Of a stretch of 64,000 nt of DNA, positions 5,601-64,000 are shown in pieces. Made by a program: the position numbers and the translations under genes. The first letter of the stretch is position 1. The number at the start of each line of letters is the position of its first letter. The notes beneath the pieces were generated by a model. It was given only the letters and a program-made list of their open reading frames with translations. It made no database searches and was not told the origin of the DNA. This DNA comes from Diprion similis (Eukaryota > Arthropoda > Insecta > Hymenoptera > Diprionidae). Location: assembly GCF_021155765.1 (NCBI RefSeq), contig NC_060108.1, positions 19,555,025 through 19,619,024 on the forward strand, in the 5' to 3' direction.

Positions 5601-5940
5601 CGCGAATTTGGTTCTAATTTTTAGAAGGAACTGTATTTCAAAATCTTCAACAAGAAACCATAAAACTAGCCTAGATACCAACAGGTCTTTGATACATTTA
5701 TACCATACGAACATTTATCGTACCAAGTTCACCCGGTTCGAAAATCGACCTAAAAAACAAAACAAGAAAAAACTACCAAAACGAAGACAACGATAATCCG
5801 AAAACCCAGTGATCCAATCGGAACCCGGACCTGGACCAACATCCAGCAGAATAAAAGATTAATAATAACGAAGTAAAGAGAAGACAAAAAATGAACGCCA
5901 GTATAAAAATAATCAGACAAAAATTATTTATCAATTGCAG
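1..5940. other. Gene-free AT-rich DNA
   Basis: I see no coding exon here that I can support. Open frames are short, overlap on both strands and have low-complexity translations. It contains a run of 30 T at 2648-2677, a run of 22 G at 4233-4254, and ordinary AT-rich sequence. It could be intergenic or the intron of a gene outside the window; nothing in the sequence decides this. Confidence 0.6.
4233..4254. repeat. Homopolymer G22
   Basis: An uninterrupted run of 22 G on the plus strand, seen directly. It is one of several long G runs in the window and may be length-variable or misassembled. Confidence 0.95.
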
Positions 5941-6068
5941 GTTTTCATCCGATATCATCGACTGACGCACTTTCAGAGCTCGATGTGAACTCTACATCGA
6001 TTGCGCATCGTTCTCCTCGAGGTGAGCCGCAGTGAGCAAACGTGAAACGTCGAGGATGACGAGGCGAC

Positions 6069-48296: not shown

Positions 48297-51200
48297 CTAC
48301 TTCCGGTAAATTCTTTGATTCTGATTATAGCCGCCAAGGTTTGCGGGACGTCCATGATTACCGTAATTTCCTTGCGTCGCATTGTAGCCTCCATGATAAC
48401 CAGGGCTTCCGTAACTTCCGGTATATCCAGGAGTCGTGTTGTATTCCCCCTGGAGTCCAGGCCGTCCGTAATTTCCGTAATTTCCTTGCGCCGCGTTGTA
48501 GCTTCCATGAAAACCAGGTCGCCCGTAATTTCCGGTATGTCCAGGAGTAGCGTTGTAGCTTCCATGAAAACCAGGTCGCCCGTAATTTCCGGTATGTCCA
48601 GGAGTAGCGTTGTAGCTTCCATGAAAACCAGGTCGCCCGTAATTTCCGGTATGTCCAGGAGTAGCGTTGTAGCTTCCATGAAAACCAGGTCGCCCGTAAT
48701 TTCCGGTATGTCCAGGAGTAGCGTTGTAGCTTCCATGAAAATCAGGTCGCCCGTAACCTCCGGTATGTCCAGGAGTAGCGTTGTAGCTTCCATGAAAACC
48801 AGGTCGCCCGTAATTTCCGGTATGTCCAGGAGTAGCGTTGTAGCTTCCATGAAAACCAGGTCGCCCGTAATTTCCGGTATGTCCAGGAGTAGCGTTGTAG
48901 CTTCCATGAAAACCAGGTCGCCCGTAATTTCCGGTATGTCCAGGAGTAGCGTTGTAGCTTCCATGAAAATCAGGTCGCCCGTAACCTCCGGTATGTCCAG
49001 GAGTAGCGTTGTAGCTTCCATGAAAACCAGGTCGCCCGTAACCTCCAGTATTTCCAGGAGTAGCGTTGTAACCCCCGGAAAATCCAGGCCGTCCGTAACT
49101 CCCCGCACTAGGAGAAACAGTGTTGTAGCCTCCAAACGATTCGGGGTGACCGTAGCTTCCGCTATTCCCATGATTTACGATGCCGGTATTGCCTCCCGGA
49201 ATTCTGTGAATACCGGAATTTCCGTAGCTCGGTGTGTTCGCATTGACTCCGATATTCCCGTAGCTTTCAAGATTCGGGTAGAGTCCAGTGCTTCCATAGC
49301 TGCCTCCGTTCCCGTAATATCCGTGCCCTGTTAAATACAAATCATAATCTATGATGCAATAATCGCGTGTATTGGACAGAGCGTCTAAAAGTTTCGGAAG
49401 TTTTTTTTTACAACGAAACAAAAGAATTCTAATACGAATTGCAGGTATTGCAGCAAGATGGAATTTGAGAGACGGAAGAAGCCTGCAAAGAAAAATCTCT
49501 ACGACCTTACGACCTGCGTTTACCGAATTACCAATACCCGAAAGAAGAGTTGAAGTTACGCTACGCAATCGATTTGCTAAGAAGACAAGAAGAAGCGGTT
49601 ATTCGTCGAAAAACCTGGGATTACTATCCACCCAATTACCTGGGCTTCCGCCGCCCCCATGAGGCGCAAACTCGTTGCCATGGAATGGTCTGCCAGCGTA
49701 ATTTGCTCTTCTGGGGCTCCTGTGAGGTTTGTCGGGAACATGTCCGGTGATCTCTTCTGCTCGTAGTGGGGCTACTAAACCTCCGGTGTTAGTATTCTTT
49801 TTGGAAACGTCATCCTCTTCCACCTCGGCTCTCCCGTGGGATCGAGCTTAAAATAAATACAGCGATTCAACTAAATATTCCGTAACGAAACAAGAGAAAT
49901 AACACATTTATTCCCGACTCAACCATAAAGTTAACTTTTATGACCTGTAAAGCGGGACAAAAGTGGCATGTTATTCCCTCTTAACTTTTTTCCCTCATCT
50001 GCGGGAAATATGAGATTTTTGAGAAATATCGTCTTATATTTCCCGTAAATAATTTTTTCAGTTTTCTCTGTTTTTCACACTGAGCGCCGGCAGTTCACCA
50101 CGGGGGGGGAGGGGGGGGGGGGATAAAAAGTTGGAAACACCGTTGATGTGTACTGCTATGAACTTTCAAAAATGTTCCCAGACTGGTAAAATGATCACAC
50201 TTACGCACGAATACAAGAATTATAATGATTTTTAATCGAAAATTTCGGAGGTACTCAACAAACTGGTAACATTTCGATGAATAGAGTTGAAATTCATTAG
50301 ATTCCTTGGAATTTGATTAAATAAGGGCTTACCTATGAGAATAATAATCGTTGATAGTACATGATTGTGCAATATTCAATGGCACATTTTCTTTATTTAA
50401 TATAAAATATCAGAAAATATCCATTTTTTCCGCGATGGGGCCCTGTCCCCCCTCCCCCCACCAGGTGGGGGCTTTCCTACCCCGCAGCCGCTGAACCACA
50501 CGCACATACGAGTTGTATGCATTTTTGAGAATGAATTTTTCCATTATTAATTTATGTTCTCAATATTGTACCCAATATTGAGAAATATATATCGAGTCCC
50601 TAGATTCAATAATGTGGCCGGAGTTGAGTCACTCGAAAATAAAGTCCTGCATGTGATATGGGAAGATAAGTCGACTATTCTCTTGAACGATTACATAGGT
50701 TACGCTTTGCTCGAGCAGTAAGCCCGCTCGTCACACGATGTATTATTTCTGGTATTTATCAGCGAAAGGTCAAGCTCCCGAAACATATGTCGCATGTTGA
50801 TCAAAAGTCCAAGTCACTCGATCAGCTTATTCGAGTTGATTCTGGAGAATCAATTCTCCGCGATCGAGCGATTTGACTGTTTTTCACTACAGCTTCGTTG
50901 TCTACAAAATCATTTTTTGTTGTCTATAAAATTTTATTTTTGACTGACCATAGCCTTCATCCAAAGCAAATCATTCATTCAATCACGCCGGAATAATAAA
51001 TTTAAAATGCGAGCGAACAGCACAAATCGAAATAATTTCATGCATTATGCAATTATCACTGATCGAATTGATATAAAAAGAAATTTCATGCTCACTTTGT
51101 CGTCAAAGAATTTGATTAGTTACAGTTACAACAATGAGAAAGTTCATACTGCGACATTTTCAATCATAAATTTCGGAAAAACGATAGCGAATTTAAACAG

Positions 51201-51316: not shown

Positions 51317-52438
51317 TTCTAACTATTCACGTTTTTACGCAGCCGTGGATAATACCGTAACTGCCCCTCTTCCTCTTGCATTCTGCTTTATTATCTCTGT
51401 TTGAGAAGCCATTATTGAGATGGCGTTGTAGTGGTCATTTTATGATTTTCCAGATTGAATTCAAATCTGTACATTTTCTGAATAATATGGACAATAGCAA
51501 TTACTGTCGCACAACGTTGTAACTCATTTCAGGTATCGCCACTGTACGACTTGGAATTGCCCTGACAGTAATCATGCAGTGTAAGTGGCAAAAATATCAT
51601 GCCACATGCCTGAGTGTGTACCACGTGGTTACCAGCTGCAAAGTCATTAGGTTATCAACCACGAAGATGGTATACATCGCAGAAGAGACTGGCTACCAAG
51701 CGATATGCATAAAAGTCTGCTATTGTCATCGGATACGTAATCGTTAGTGTAAACACTGACACTACTGAGCTTCAACGCTGATCCCTATAACAAAGTAGAA
51801 CTTAGGTTCCGAGCGTATTTGAAAATTCAGGAAATATTCAGTCAATTTTATTTAATTTTTCAGGTGGCGTAGGGCGAAGAATCTTGTGATATCGAAGGTC
51901 AGAAAAACGCTTACAGAATTAAGGAAATAGCGCCAATTTAACGGAAGCTACTCTTTCCGAGTCAATTGTCACAATTATTTTCATCCCCCTAAATCGTGCA
52001 GGCTTGTTTTATAAAAACCGTTTTCGTCAATCAATAAGCACAGCATGTTGGTAAAACTTTGAATTATTATTCGTTACAGATATCTGCGATTACAAGAACA
52101 AACGCTGTATGTAAATGATAAACGAAGTTATACAGACACAAAATACAAATGTACACAGACACAAGGACGTCATAGGCAAATGTTAACATCGGTGGTTGAC
52201 GACATTGTTTTGAATTACTGTGTAAATCTTTTTACTATGTTTCAACATCATGTATTACAAATAGGCACATTCAAATGTACGCAACACTCGTAGCCGTAAA
52301 ACTGTCAGATTAGAAATAGGGTGGCTACCGCCGTGACCATCCCACTTGCTACGTTAGTTTCTAAAACTTAATACCGTCTTGTCCACTTCCTTGGTCTCCA
52401 AAACTTCTATGGTTTCTGGCTTGATCGGCGATACTTTG

Positions 52439-54162
52439 CTAAACTCGTCCAACTCGGAAATCTGGGCTCCTTGGTGAATTCACTGATCGTTTTCCAACCT
52501 TGATCCCGTGGTGAACTTCTCCATCTAGACCACCGCTGCCTTTCGCTTTAACTCCGTTAACCTCACCTTCAAGAGTTCCGTTAACACCGCCCTCGACACC
52601 GAGTCTCAGTCCAAAAATAGCCGGGGATCTGATTACTCTTCCGACACCACCCTGACCTCCATGTCTTCTTCGATCGCCAGGATCACCTGAGGAAACTCGT
52701 CCATACTGGAAACTTGGGCTCCTTGGTGAATTCACTGATCGTTTTCCAATCTTGATCCCGTGGTGAACTTCTCCATCTAGACCACCGCTGCCTTTCGCTT
52801 TAACTCCGTTAACCTCACCTTCAAGAGTTCCGTTAACACCGCCCTCGACACCGAGTCTCAGTCCAAAAATAGCCGGGGATCTGATTACTCTTCCGACACC
52901 ACCCTGACCTCCATGTCTTCTTCGATCGCCAGGATCACCTGAGGAAACTCGTCCATACTGGAAACCTGGGCTCCTTGGTGAATTCACTGATCGTTTTCCA
53001 ACCTTGATCCCGTGGTGAACTTCTCCATCTAGACCACCGCTGCCTTTCGCTTTAACTCCGTTAACCTCACCTTCAAGAGTTCCGTTAACACCGCCCTCGA
53101 CACCGAGTCTCAGTCCAAAAATAGCCGGGGATCTGATTACTCTTCCGACACCACCCTGACCTCCATGTCTTCTTCGATCGCCAGGATCACCTGAGGAAAC
53201 TCGTCCATACTGGAAACCTGGGCTCCTTGGTGAATTCACTGATCGTTTTCCAACCTTGATCCCGTGGTGAACTTCTCCATCTAGACCACCGCTGCCTTTC
53301 GCTTTAACTCCGTTAACCTCACCTTCAAGAGTTCCGTTAACACCGCCCTCGACACCGAGTCTCAGTCCAAAAATAGCCGGGGATCTGATTACTCTTCCGA
53401 CACCACCCTGACCTCCATGTCTTCCTCGATCACCAGAGTCACCTAGGGATTCCAAATTTGCTCTCAAATATGTTTGTAGTTGATGTTCTTCCTATATGCC
53501 AGCTCGATACTCGTGTAATTTATAAAGAAATGTTGGTCTTATACTTTGATATTTACCTGGTAATGTCAACAAATTTGGAAGCTGAATACTTTCATCAATT
53601 TACTACGCAGGACGATTTTACTCTTCAGATGGAAGACCCGTGATCGTTTCGGTAGGTACAAATGTGAAAATATTCGATTGGGTATCTCCATTGATTTGAA
53701 ATCTTTGGAAGAAAACTTGGCGACAAGAGTTCAGTCACTATAGAAGTGAAGACACTAAAAATGATTTTCAATAGATAACTTCTAGAGCAAAACAGAGGGT
53801 TTTAGAATTGTAGGTTTCAAGTAATACTTGGGTATAATGTTCTTGGATTCGCATCCATTTTTTGATAAAAAGATATTGATATTGACGTATGCTTGTAAAT
53901 GTTTCTATGGACAAAATACGTGACACACACGACGTACTGAGGCACGCGAGTCATGGGAAGTTGATCAAAAACTACGAATGGTTCGGCAACAATCTTCTCA
54001 ACCATTCACAATGAGTGGATTCAATAAGTTATTACGGTTGATGTGAGATTTGTGAGGTTTGAGAGTATGAGTTAAGAATGTTTTGGAGTTAGACTTACCT
54101 GGAGCTGCGGCAATAACCGCAAATAACGCGAATAACGCAGCCACTCCGTACTGTGTACGCAT
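52439..54162 (-). CDS. Gene B1: secreted multi-unit peptide precursor
   Basis: Exon 1 (54162-54099) encodes a signal peptide, MRTQYGVAALFALFAVIAAA. The main exon runs to a stop at 52439 and encodes four near-identical 84-residue Gly-rich units. Each unit has a furin-type site (RVIR before SPAIFG), a core of alternating Val/Gly that should be beta-rich, then VGKR, which would release a C-terminally amidated core of 45-46 residues, and an Arg/Pro/Ser-rich linker. If exon 2 starts at the acceptor homologous to B2 (53556), an in-frame TAG at 53494-53492 stops translation after 21 more residues. An acceptor at 53443 (CCCTAG|GTGAC) skips the stop, keeps phase and gives 355 residues. I do not recognise the family; composition, processing sites and promoter suggest an inducible antimicrobial precursor, which is inference. 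Confidence 0.6.
52450..53440 (-). repeat. 252-bp coding tandem repeat, about four units
   Basis: The marker CCGGGGATCTGATTACTC recurs at 52621, 52873, 53125 and 53377, a spacing of exactly 252 bp. Units differ at only a few positions. B2 lacks this array, so the expansion happened after the two B genes separated, or has been homogenised. Confidence 0.95.
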
Positions 54163-54198: not shown

Positions 54199-54206
54199 TT
54201 TATATA
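54199..54206 (-). promoter_or_regulatory. TATA box of gene B1
   Basis: TATATAAA on the minus strand, 37-44 bp upstream of the B1 start codon. An initiator-like ACAGT lies near 54174, at the expected 25-30 bp spacing. The same arrangement is kept in B2 (60768-60775). Confidence 0.7.
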
Positions 54207-54223: not shown

Positions 54224-54233
54224 GAATATCCCC
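54224..54233 (-). promoter_or_regulatory. Candidate kappaB (Relish-type) site of gene B1
   Basis: GGGGATATTC on the minus strand, immediately upstream of the TATA box. It resembles insect NF-kappaB sites (GGGR...YYYY). The equivalent place in B2 (60793-60802) reads GGGGAAATTT, also kappaB-like despite substitutions around it. A further GGGGTTTTTC lies near 54402. Binding is inferred from the motif only. Confidence 0.45.
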
Positions 54234-54242
54234 GGACCAGAA

Positions 54243-54450
54243 TTTCGATAACACAGAGTTACGTATAATATTTTAATCATCGAACGAGAAGCGGGTTTTT
54301 TTGATTGATAAGACGCATAATTTGCTTCCTGCGCGGATGCGGTTCGTACATTCGATAACACAGAATTACATAAGATATTTTAATCGACGGTTGAGAAACG
54401 GGGTTTTTCTCTAAATGATGAGATAATTTATTTATCGTACCGTTCAAGTT
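54243..54450. repeat. Imperfect 109-bp direct repeat upstream of gene B1
   Basis: TTCGATAACACAGAGTTACG at about 54244 recurs with substitutions about 109 bp on. Each half continues with ATATTTTAATC and a GGG-TTTTT motif. Also present in cassette copy 2. It could be a duplicated upstream regulatory module. Confidence 0.6.
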
Positions 54451-59587: not shown

Positions 59588-60731
59588 CTAGTGATCGCAT
59601 GCTTCTCCAATGCAAAAGCCACCCCTGGCTCTTGCTGAGGCACCATGCTCGACTTTGATTGGTATTCCGAAAATCTCCGCTTCAGGTCGTATTGCGCCAC
59701 CAACCCCGACATCGCCTTCTAATTTGCCGTTCAAGGGGGATCTGACTACTCTTTTGACGGCAGTCTTGGCTGCGTTTTTTTCTGCGTTACGCTCTTGGCC
59801 TTCAGATTCTACTCCTACACCCCAATAGACGAAAGCTTCCCCTGCGACTTCACCCTCGCCTAATTCTTTTACTCCAAGAGCTTCTCCGACGTTTCCTTTG
59901 AGCCTGCCCTCGACCTTCCCTCCTTCTTCTGAGATCCACGAAGACCTGTTTACTCTTCCGGAACCACCTTCGACTCCATGTCTTGCTCGGTCACCAGGAT
60001 CACCTAGGGATTCAAAATTTGTTTTCAAATATGGTTGTAGTTGATGTTTTTCCGATATGCCAGCTCGATACTCGTGTAATTTATAAACATATGTTGGCCT
60101 TATACTTTGATATTCGCCTACTAATGTCAATCAAATTTGGAAGTTGAACACTTTCATCAATTTAGTACGCAGGACGATTTTACTTTTCAAATTGAAGACC
60201 CGTGATCGTTTCGGTAGGTATAAATGTGAGAATATTCGATCGGATATCTCCAATGATTTGAAATGGTATAGAAAACTTGACGATAAAAGTTCAGTCGCTA
60301 TAGAAGTAGAGACACTCAAAATGATTTTCAAAGGATAACTTCTAGAACAAAAGGGAGGGCGTTGAATTTTTAGGATTCAAGAAACATTTGGGTATTATGT
60401 TCTTCGATTCGTATCCATTTTTTTATAGTTAGAAACTAATATTGAGGTATGCTTGAAAATGATTTTTTGGACAAAATACGTGACACAAGTTACACGCATT
60501 ACATACTGAGGCACGTGAGTCGTGTGAAGTTGATCGAAAACTACGAATGGTTCGGCAACAATCTTCTCAACCATTCACAATGAGTGAAATCAATAAGTTA
60601 TTCCGGTTAGTGTTCGATTTTTGAAGTATGAGCGTATCAGTTGAGAATGTTTTGGAGTTAGACTTACCTGGAGCTGCGGCAATTACCACCGCAAACGAAA
60701 ATAACGCAGCTACTGTGTATTGTGTACGCAT
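59588..60731 (-). CDS. Gene B2: diverged paralogue of the B1 secreted peptide precursor
   Basis: Exon 1 (60731-60668) encodes a signal peptide, MRTQYTVAALFSFAVVIAAA. Exon 2 (60120-59588) follows a TTAG acceptor in matching phase, giving 198 residues. The mature part starts with a conserved segment containing SIRPTYVYKLHEYRAG (also present, but followed by a stop, in B1). Two diverged Gly-rich domains follow; the first is preceded by GRVNR and the second by VKRVVR before SPLNG, so furin-like processing is plausible. There is no near-identical array as in B1. The frame stops at a GEACDH ending where B1 continues GEVHHG. A second minus-strand frame (59712-59473) carries an acidic tail (EVDELSEITPIK) homologous to sequence beyond the B1 stop, so the C-terminus differs by frameshift between copies. 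Family not recognised. Confidence 0.6.
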
Positions 60732-62247: not shown

Positions 62248-62353
62248 AAGTCTCTTTATCTTTTTATATATATATTTGTGATTTTCGTTTTTATGTTAAT
62301 TGTTTTATGGCGTTGAAATGCAGGAAAATTACGTAAAATAAATTTAACATATA

Positions 62354-63556
62354 TTGATGGCTAATCGTTCGACCATTAAAACCAGGTCCAAAATTGTACA
62401 TTCACCGATAGCGACGAGGACAGAGACAAAGGCGAGCTCAGAAAAACCTACAATAAATATGAACATGGAAGAACAGTTGGAACGTCTTAAGGAGGAATTA
62501 GCGAGTCTATCTGGATTAAGAGAATGCGTGGTTCAGCTACAAAGTCAGCAAACACGAAACGAAGAATTAGCACGGGAGATTCAAATATTGAATACGCAAA
62601 ATCGAGAGCAACGGGAAATACTAGAAACGTTTCGTCCACAACAAACAAATACAGTAAATAATGATGAAACATTGGTAAGTGGATTGGTAGCTAGTTTGCA
62701 AAGAACTCATATCGAGATAAATACTCCTGAATTTTATGACGAAGAAACTTCAAATCCGATAGAATTTTTAAATAATATGGAGAGCTATTTTAATTTAAAA
62801 AATATTGTTGGTCAATGGAAATTAGGAATTATAGAAAATAAATTAAAAGGTAGAGCTAGATTGTGGTGGGATTCAATTAAGCAGCAAATCGAAAATTATG
62901 ATGTTTTTAAGAGAGCATTTCTGGAAAAATTTTACTCGATTCCTATACAAGTAAAGGCAAAAAACAAGTGGAGTTCTCGAAAATACAAATCACAAGATGG
63001 ATCATTGCAAATGTATTTTTTCAAGCAAGTTGTTGAAGCTAAATACTTTACGCCAAAATTAGATGTATTTGAAATTAATTACACAATTGTTCAACAATTG
63101 CCGAACAGAGTTCGCGATATATTGGCAACAGTAAATTTTTCTGATACGAAACAAATAGAACAGACTTTATCGCATTTAGATAGTACGTATCAAGAACGAG
63201 ACAATGAAAGACGTCAAAATCAAAATATTACTAATTCTATAACTCAATCTCAAAATTTTAAAAACACAACATATAAACATAATAATAGTCAAGATACAAA
63301 TTATCAACCTGCTAATTACCAAAGAATTCCTCAATCATACTTCAATTGCCAAAATTATACCCAGAATATTCCGCAAAATCCGAATACAAACAATGTAATG
63401 TCAAATGAGCAAAGTTCGAATAATTTCTCAACATCTGCAAATAATCAAATAGTATTACCTAATTTTAGCTATCCACCACCTCCATTATTAAATACAAATA
63501 ATCAAGTTATGGGACAACAAGGCGTAAATAATGTGCTAAATAGACATTTAAACTAA
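62354..63556 (+). CDS. gag: Retrotransposon Gag polyprotein
   Basis: A 400-residue intact frame. Residues about 38-100 are a Glu/Gln/Leu-rich coiled coil. Residues about 125-250 match the Retrotrans_gag capsid domain, with an FYDEETSNPIEFL block and the characteristic RARLWWDSI. The C-terminal 130 residues are Asn/Gln-rich. No CCHC zinc knuckle is visible, so RNA binding must rely on other residues, a feature of some Gypsy lineages. It starts 125 bp after the LTR. The stop overlaps a -1 frameshift signal leading to the protease frame. Gag would assemble the cytoplasmic particle that packages element RNA. Confidence 0.9.
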   Translation: MMANRSTIKTRSKIVHSPIATRTETKASSEKPTINMNMEEQLERLKEELASLSGLRECVVQLQSQQTRNEELAREIQILNTQNREQREILETFRPQQTNTVNNDETLVSGLVASLQRTHIEINTPEFYDEETSNPIEFLNNMESYFNLKNIVGQWKLGIIENKLKGRARLWWDSIKQQIENYDVFKRAFLEKFYSIPIQVKAKNKWSSRKYKSQDGSLQMYFFKQVVEAKYFTPKLDVFEINYTIVQQLPNRVRDILATVNFSDTKQIEQTLSHLDSTYQERDNERRQNQNITNSITQSQNFKNTTYKHNNSQDTNYQPANYQRIPQSYFNCQNYTQNIPQNPNTNNVMSNEQSSNNFSTSANNQIVLPNFSYPPPPLLNTNNQVMGQQGVNNVLNRHLN

Positions 63557-63594
63557 ATAACAACGCGTTGCGAGTGGGTCCCGCATCGTGTTGT
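63547..63594 (+). promoter_or_regulatory. -1 programmed ribosomal frameshift signal (gag-pol)
   Basis: The slippery heptamer T TTA AAC (63547-63553) is in the gag frame directly before the TAA stop. After a 6-nt spacer, a hairpin forms: 63560-63567 pairs with 63587-63594 (8 pairs, one G-U), then a T-T mismatch, then 63569-63572 pairs with 63582-63585, leaving a 9-nt loop. The -1 frame is open from the heptamer to the window end and has no suitable ATG before the protease. Confidence 0.88.
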
Positions 63595-64000
63595 GACTAT
63601 ATAAATTTAGCTAAGGACCTTGTAAATGATATGAATGATAATCCGTATATAGCAAAGAATCAAGATACAGAAAACCACTTATCTAAGGGACCGCACATAC
63701 ATGTTGTTATTTTAAAAAATCAAGTTTCAGCTTTGATTGATACCGGAAGCCAAATAACTTGCATGTCGGAAAAATTTTATAAATACTTAAAAAACAATCA
63801 TGATTTAAATGAACTTCCTGTTAGTAATGTATTAGTATTATCGGCTATAGGACAAAAAACTACTCCAGTCAGGCGACAAATACTTGTAGATGTTAGTATA
63901 GGAGACAAAATTATACGTACGGTCTTTTTAATCGTACCACATTTAGTAAATGATATTATTTTTGGTAATGATTGGTTGTTCATAAATAGAGTCTTGTTAG
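63547..64000 (+). CDS. pol: Retrotransposon Pol, protease part (incomplete)
   Basis: Frame -1 relative to gag, open without stop to the window edge (about 150 residues visible). It contains the aspartic protease active site DTGS (63739-63750) and a downstream IIFGNDWL block that matches the ILGxDWL motif of retroviral-type proteases. It has no own start near the gag stop, consistent with translation as a Gag-Pol fusion through the frameshift signal. Reverse transcriptase and later domains are outside the window. Confidence 0.88.

Follow-up and report, generated by a model that had tools for sequence, protein, structure and literature searches.

The window analysed here is a stretch of 64,000 nucleotides from the pine sawfly Diprion similis (contig C4:19555025-19619024 of a 269-Mb assembly). 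Its minus strand carries a two-exon gene, gene A, which comprises a leader exon for a signal peptide (called by eye), a GT-AG intron, and a second exon that is largely occupied by four repeat units of 252 nt, or 84 codons (Table 1). Each unit has RVIR|SP at the start of its core, a GKR end and three histidines; with the cut site before it, the core of unit 1 reads RVIR-SPAIFGLRLGVEGGVNGTLEGEVNGVKAKGSGGLDGEVHHGIKVGKR, and a basic spacer comes next. We take RVIR to be a furin-type cut motif and GKR to be an amidation motif. The first-pass annotation of this DNA had described a signal peptide and four 84-residue units with RVIR before SPAIFG and GKR ends, and this anatomy was recovered in full (four RVIR-SPAIFG, three VGKR and one IGKR); against its estimate of 45-46 residues, the released core would have 45 with the glycine, or 44 if the core is amidated. 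The joined product of 355 residues is identical to an NCBI-derived prediction, P0001. The name given to that protein, 'uncharacterized PE-PGRS family protein PE_PGRS54-like [Diprion similis]', is a misnomer, probably prompted by glycine content.

One of the six frames is open through a gene A unit. That frame is open in 2.2% of 5000 dinucleotide shuffles, and any of the three sense frames is open in 8.2% of 5000, so the long open reading frame by itself is modest evidence. The leader, the splice sites and the RVIR/RVVR-SP motif in the paralogs add to this evidence that gene A is a real gene. The units are nearly identical, as against an intron divergence of 13.0% from paralog B, which indicates that the array is either young or homogenised. 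The anatomy of the gene is real, and gene A probably encodes a new secreted precursor of the multipeptide type inside an undescribed cluster. Another repeat protein is seen at about 48360-49370 of the window, minus strand, as a long open frame with Gly/Tyr/Asn-rich units of about 19 residues like NYGRPGFHGSYNATPGHTG.

Table 1. Positions of gene A, its repeat units, its promoter elements and its paralogs (window positions, except extended window coordinates for C, D and E)
Feature	Position	Strand	Description
kappaB-like GGGGTTTTTC	54400..54409	+	GATA site 11 bases off; weak against chance
kappaB-like GGGGATATTC	54224..54233	-	GGGGAAATTT in B and C; weak against chance
TATA box	54200..54206	-	44 bases ahead of ATG; ATATAA kept in 6/6 aligned copies
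Gene A, whole	54162-54099 + 53442-52439	-	two exons, 355-residue precursor
Gene A exon 1	54099..54162	-	ATG; signal peptide MRTQYGVAALFALFAVIAAAPG; last codon divided by the intron (phase 1); leader retained in six copies
Gene A intron 1	53443..54098	-	656 nt, GTAAGT...CCCTAG, GT-AG, phase 1
Gene A exon 2	52439..53442	-	1,004 nt, with a short pro-region, the four units and the stop; joined product as in NCBI protein P0001
Unit 1	53132..53383	-	core 53243-53383 SPAIFG...VGKR, then spacer ending RVIR
Unit 2	52880..53131	-	identical to unit 1
Unit 3	52628..52879	-	differs from unit 1 at two bases (V to I, G to S)
Unit 4	52439..52627	-	ends early: short tail SVNSPRSPDFRVGRV and stop; 7/189 positions differ
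Paralog B, whole	60731-59588	-	in window
Paralog B exon 1	60668..60731	-	signal peptide MRTQYTVAALFSFAVVIAAAPG
Paralog B exon 2	59588..60003	-	159-aa precursor: divergent unit 1 (RVNR-SS), unit 2 (RVVR-SPLNGKLEG...FCIGEACDH)
Paralog C	ATG at 70894		114 residues
Paralog D	ATG at 81037		114 residues
Paralog E	ATG at 84638		same leader and glycine repeat

A cluster with a common signal exon

Gene A belongs to a small cluster that was absent from the first-pass annotation, with paralog B inside the window and C, D and E within the next 24 kb. When the genome was searched with the gene A promoter and signal exon, nine scored candidates yielded 11 matched pieces. With local comparisons, these resolve into A, B, C, D, E, a diverged copy on contig C6, a fragment with a shifted frame (C4:19359376) and, near 68.5 and 78.6 kb, pieces that resemble the promoter; at the one of these last two that was examined, no gene was recognised. 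Copies were sought by searches of this genome, and the copy number is thus a lower bound.

The promoter and the signal exon are common to all the cluster genes, and the peptide exons are of four kinds, with C and D having the same one. The B, C and D precursors have one or two units only, with RVVR-SP or RVIR-SP ahead of the last peptide, and the GKR end is absent from all three. Exon 2 of paralog E is a GGFGGQGG-type repeat (frames read by eye) without homology to gene A. The copy on C6 has kept the leader and the splice sites, and has a 67-codon open exon without the cut motif; at its end the tail is repeated in inverted orientation (L020, C6:15726000-15735000, at 5933-6032). Homology between the second exons of A and B is seen with blastp (4e-9 among three sequences; E of about 0.001 to 0.045 over the whole genome) and is clearer between B and C.

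An acidic tail like VDEFSEVSPIKTETEEVREAKEID is found in a different frame, around or after the stop, at about 52360-52455 of the window and at the corresponding position in B, C and D and in the C6 copy; it may represent an ancestral C-terminus or an exon that has escaped recognition. Residues and an acidic tail are also common to B and C in another reading frame (the SEYQSK frame), which contains stop codons upstream and has at most 10 changes per codon position; it may be an ancestral frame or an extra exon. Just past paralog B, at 62348-63999 of the window on the plus strand, are retroelement-like open frames (gag, aspartic protease), the DTGSQ motif in them being what we take for the aspartic protease.

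Divergence and probable recombination

Identity between A and B is 96.0% in the promoter, 87.0% in the intron and 59.4% over the initial 200 nt of exon 2; between B and D the corresponding values are 89.5%, 87.1% and, for exon 2, 70.5%. In differences, the A/B intron has 85/654 (13.0%) compared with 80/197 (40.6%) for those 200 nt of exon 2 (P 9e-16), and the B/D intron has 70/544 compared with 83/281 for exon 2 (P 2e-8). Over the 234 aligned nucleotides of exon 2 of B and C, which have no internal stop, the changes at codon positions 1/2/3 number 27/27/14 (dN 0.41, dS 0.26), and the third-position deficit (14 of 68) has a P of 0.015. As read from these alignments, the pattern is the fast change expected of effectors. 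Gene conversion of the promoter and intron could exaggerate the contrast between exon and intron, which is therefore, by itself, no proof of positive selection. In the signal exon dN is below dS in most pairs; the exceptions (A/E, A/C6, B/C6, C/C6 and E/C6) involve very few changes.

Paralog C matches B in the promoter (0/500 differences) and exon 1 (0/64) and matches D in exon 2 (0/281), and its intron is mixed. It lies where the two copies of a tandem duplication meet. The duplication measures about 10.16 kb (about 60108-80430 on C4, in extended window coordinates), and its copies are 99.8% identical over the 9,193 bases compared and 98.9% over a further 1,296. On the simplest reading of these sequences, C would be a natural recombinant of B and D through the intron.

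Promoter elements

TATA and kappaB-like sites had been taken in the first-pass annotation to support inducible expression. The TATA box is conserved; the kappaB-like sites are present, but stand out only weakly from chance. In the 560-bp upstream stretch there are two such sites in A, one each in B and C, a distant one in D, none in E and two overlapping ones in the C6 copy, and among 4000 random local stretches of that length at least one site occurs in 17.3% and two or more in 5.7% (overlapping matches counted apart). In insect immune enhancers, kappaB and GATA sites are linked. In 3.8% of the random stretches a kappaB-like site has a GATA site no more than 50 bases away; both A sites and the D site have such a neighbour, and B, C, E and the C6 copy do not. 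The two controls are split, abaecin having a perfect kappaB site with GATA nearby and hymenoptaecin having none. The kappaB and GATA sites give weak support and were rejected as proof of immune induction. Upstream of A there is also a duplicated 58-base block (window 54244-54408, copies 107 bases apart and 81% alike), the upstream copy of which occurs in B, C and D but in neither E nor the C6 copy.

Searches for relatives

The Pfam scan of gene A listed four models, none at its cut-off, and thus gave no match to back the suggested likeness to apidaecins; attacin was not listed in the scans of A or of B, C and E. Collagen was not listed for A and reached E 0.77 and 10 bits for C, against a cut-off of 27.2; the long Gly-X-Y repeat of collagen-type silk was not found. 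In three protein searches (at least 7987 candidates at E 1; 28 and 3808 at E 10), the sole match among those listed was the gene A protein itself, in the first, and B, C and D had no protein match at E 10. A search of solved structures with the first 174 residues of the gene A product gave no match. Among titles and abstract openings, in a coverage that takes in few subscription journals, none was found to describe gene A or its kind. The earlier view of an undescribed multipeptide precursor is supported by its anatomy and by the empty family and protein searches. B, C and D may be unannotated, unexpressed or decaying. The gene A family may be restricted to its lineage, although the lack of a protein match for B, C and D means that relatives in other sawflies may exist unannotated.

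Charge, pattern and predicted fold of the core

The net charge is 0 for the A core, -2 for the B core and +1 for the C core, and +5 for both the A spacer and the D. similis hymenoptaecin unit. The A and B cores are thus about neutral, where a cationic mature peptide would be looked for among insect antimicrobial peptides. Apolar and polar residues alternate in the A, B and C peptides, and one face of the A core reads F L L V G V G L G V / V A G G L G V H I V, with one histidine. In a 17-residue window, the number of shuffles out of 5000 that reached the best score was 19 (A), 17 (C), 106 (B) and 128 (B first unit), compared with 4791 (A spacer) and 638 (hymenoptaecin unit); in an 11-residue window the counts were 267 (A), 81 (C), 183 (B), 139 (B first unit), 4587 (spacer) and 1025 (hymenoptaecin), weaker for A than at 17 residues, all of these being uncorrected counts from twelve tests. 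AlphaFold2, given a two-sequence alignment, returned a two-strand hairpin (5-23/26-44) for the A core with a mean pLDDT of 71.8 and a pTM of 0.29, other models going down to 40.8; with modest confidence, the core may be a beta-hairpin. The model of two joined gene A units (pLDDT 36.3) was uninterpretable.

Proposed function and alternatives

We propose, with a probability of about one half, that the gene A cluster is a family of inducible effectors for host defence (antimicrobial), which would work in the manner of the multipeptide hymenoptaecin precursors without being homologous to them. The signal peptide would be removed from the gene A precursor, a furin-type convertase would cut after RVIR and after GKR, and a carboxypeptidase would trim KR, leaving an exposed glycine to be converted to an amide. 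The yield would be four near-identical 44-residue glycine-rich amphipathic beta-hairpin peptides and basic spacer peptides, the repetition of units raising peptide yield per transcript; across the cluster, a common promoter and signal exon would be combined with a rapidly changing peptide exon. The sequence shows the anatomy of the gene, the repeat, the paralogs, the pattern of divergence and the hybrid copy directly. Secretion and processing of the precursor are likely, and we infer these steps, namely secretion, cleavage and amidation, together with the fold, the restriction to one lineage and the antimicrobial use of the product, and hence an immune role of the cluster.

Several observations argue for the effector reading: the spliced open reading frame equals an independent prediction, the leader and ATATAA are kept in six copies and RVIR/RVVR-SP in A, B, C and D, exon 2 outpaces the intron, the core alternates and is modelled as a hairpin, and the same genome has a multipeptide hymenoptaecin. 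Against it stand the non-cationic A and B cores, the weak promoter evidence, the lack of a protein match for B-D, the weaker alternation at 11 residues and the core models of low pLDDT. A bolder extension, which we hold tentatively and at less than even odds, is that the cluster acts as an effector-exchange cassette, in which a common promoter, signal exon and phase-1 intron would have had peptide exons attached by unequal crossing-over in the intron, giving in A a precursor of four amidated beta-hairpin units, in B one of two units, in C and D peptides that end in cysteine and in E a protein of glycine repeats. Together these would form a new antimicrobial family that only pine sawflies have.

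The units might instead stay joined, their amphipathic beta segments stacking or aggregating in a secreted structural repeat protein of cocoon silk, egg coat or cuticle. Glycine-rich repeats, beta-type alternation and neutral charge would suit such a protein, as would the second repeat protein nearby (about 48.3-49.4 kb), the glycine repeat of paralog E and the short GXY-like start of exon 2, which gives C its weak Collagen match. That match is, however, far under its cut-off, the convertase motif is retained in B, C and D despite their one or two units, and exon 2 diverges more than the intron, unlike a constrained fibre; we regard a structural role as unlikely. A common leader, a fast-evolving effector exon and tandem duplication are also typical of secreted gland peptides, and the cluster fits this pattern; an exocrine or reproductive secretion peptide (ovipositor, accessory or salivary gland) acting on host plant or mate seems to us a slightly poorer prospect. 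Young or decaying gene copies with no working product would agree with the C6 copy that lacks the cut motif, the frame-shifted fragment on C4, the lack of an annotated protein for B-D and the acidic tail common in another frame after the stops, but the frames of A, B and C/D are open and spliceable despite 29-46% divergence in exon 2, and NCBI predicts gene A, which makes this explanation improbable. A neuropeptide precursor, with amidated signalling peptides released from repeated G-K-R-ended units, would fit the amidation and dibasic signal in 4/4 A units and is nevertheless very improbable, given beta-patterned cores of 44 residues, B-D with strongly different sequence and no GKR end, and no Pfam family match.

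If the host-defence reading is correct, a sawfly has an unrecognised secreted peptide family, and a single genome uses the multipeptide layout in two unrelated families. In the young cluster one could then follow, stage by stage, how the intron recombines, how units are amplified and how fast the effector exon changes. Its genes have escaped annotation, gene A under a mycobacterial family name and B, C and D without a protein in the protein searches.

Comparison with known systems

The GGFGGQGG-type repeat of paralog E may resemble glycine-rich peptides of the tenecin-3 type, whereas gene A is not a simple glycine repeat. Tenecin-3 is a glycine-rich peptide (PMC2853521, on Nasonia peptides, accessible portion). 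The hisnavicins of Neodiprion lecontei are clustered, internally repeated and filed as antimicrobial peptides; in the accessible portion of that account, they have a 62-residue motif in up to 19 copies, and ten paralogs are histidine-rich and orthologous to ant cuticle proteins (PMC10542623). Compared by description, they resemble gene A in occurring in a diprionid sawfly, in a cluster and with internal repeats, and differ in having a motif of 62 residues rather than units of 84, and in the histidine richness of ten paralogs as against three histidines per gene A unit.

D. similis has a hymenoptaecin of its own, a six-unit precursor with short 62-residue domains at about 14,245.7-14,247.3 kb of C10 (ATG C10:14247264), and the abaecin ATG (C10:14251816) is about 4.5 kb from its start codon. 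The two genes adjoin in N. lecontei as well, to judge from the adjacent gene numbers in the accessible portion of PMC10542623. Gene A, on C4, is not at this locus. A genome search with bee hymenoptaecin gave nothing at E 1, yet a local tblastn later recovered the gene next to abaecin, so little weight can be put on a negative outcome of the genome search. The profile comparison with the hymenoptaecin family that the first-pass annotation had called for gave no match (hhalign probability 0.1%, one column aligned), and blastp of the A unit against the D. similis hymenoptaecin unit gave none at E 10. Together with the precursor on C10, these results rule out gene A as a hymenoptaecin.

The remark that gene A recalls repeated hymenoptaecins thus fails on homology and stands for layout, with tandem units, spacers and basic cut sites after one intron. 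The precursors of the ant Camponotus floridanus (PMC3415428, accessible portion) and of D. similis share with gene A a signal sequence, tandem near-identical units, spacers and basic cut sites, with one intron in the ants, but gene A has no sequence similarity to them. The spacers and cuts are EAEP-RR in the ant (PMC3415428, same portion), RRSPEPQPEPQ in D. similis hymenoptaecin and RVIR with GKR in gene A, and a neutral gene A core takes the place of a hymenoptaecin unit with a net charge of +5.
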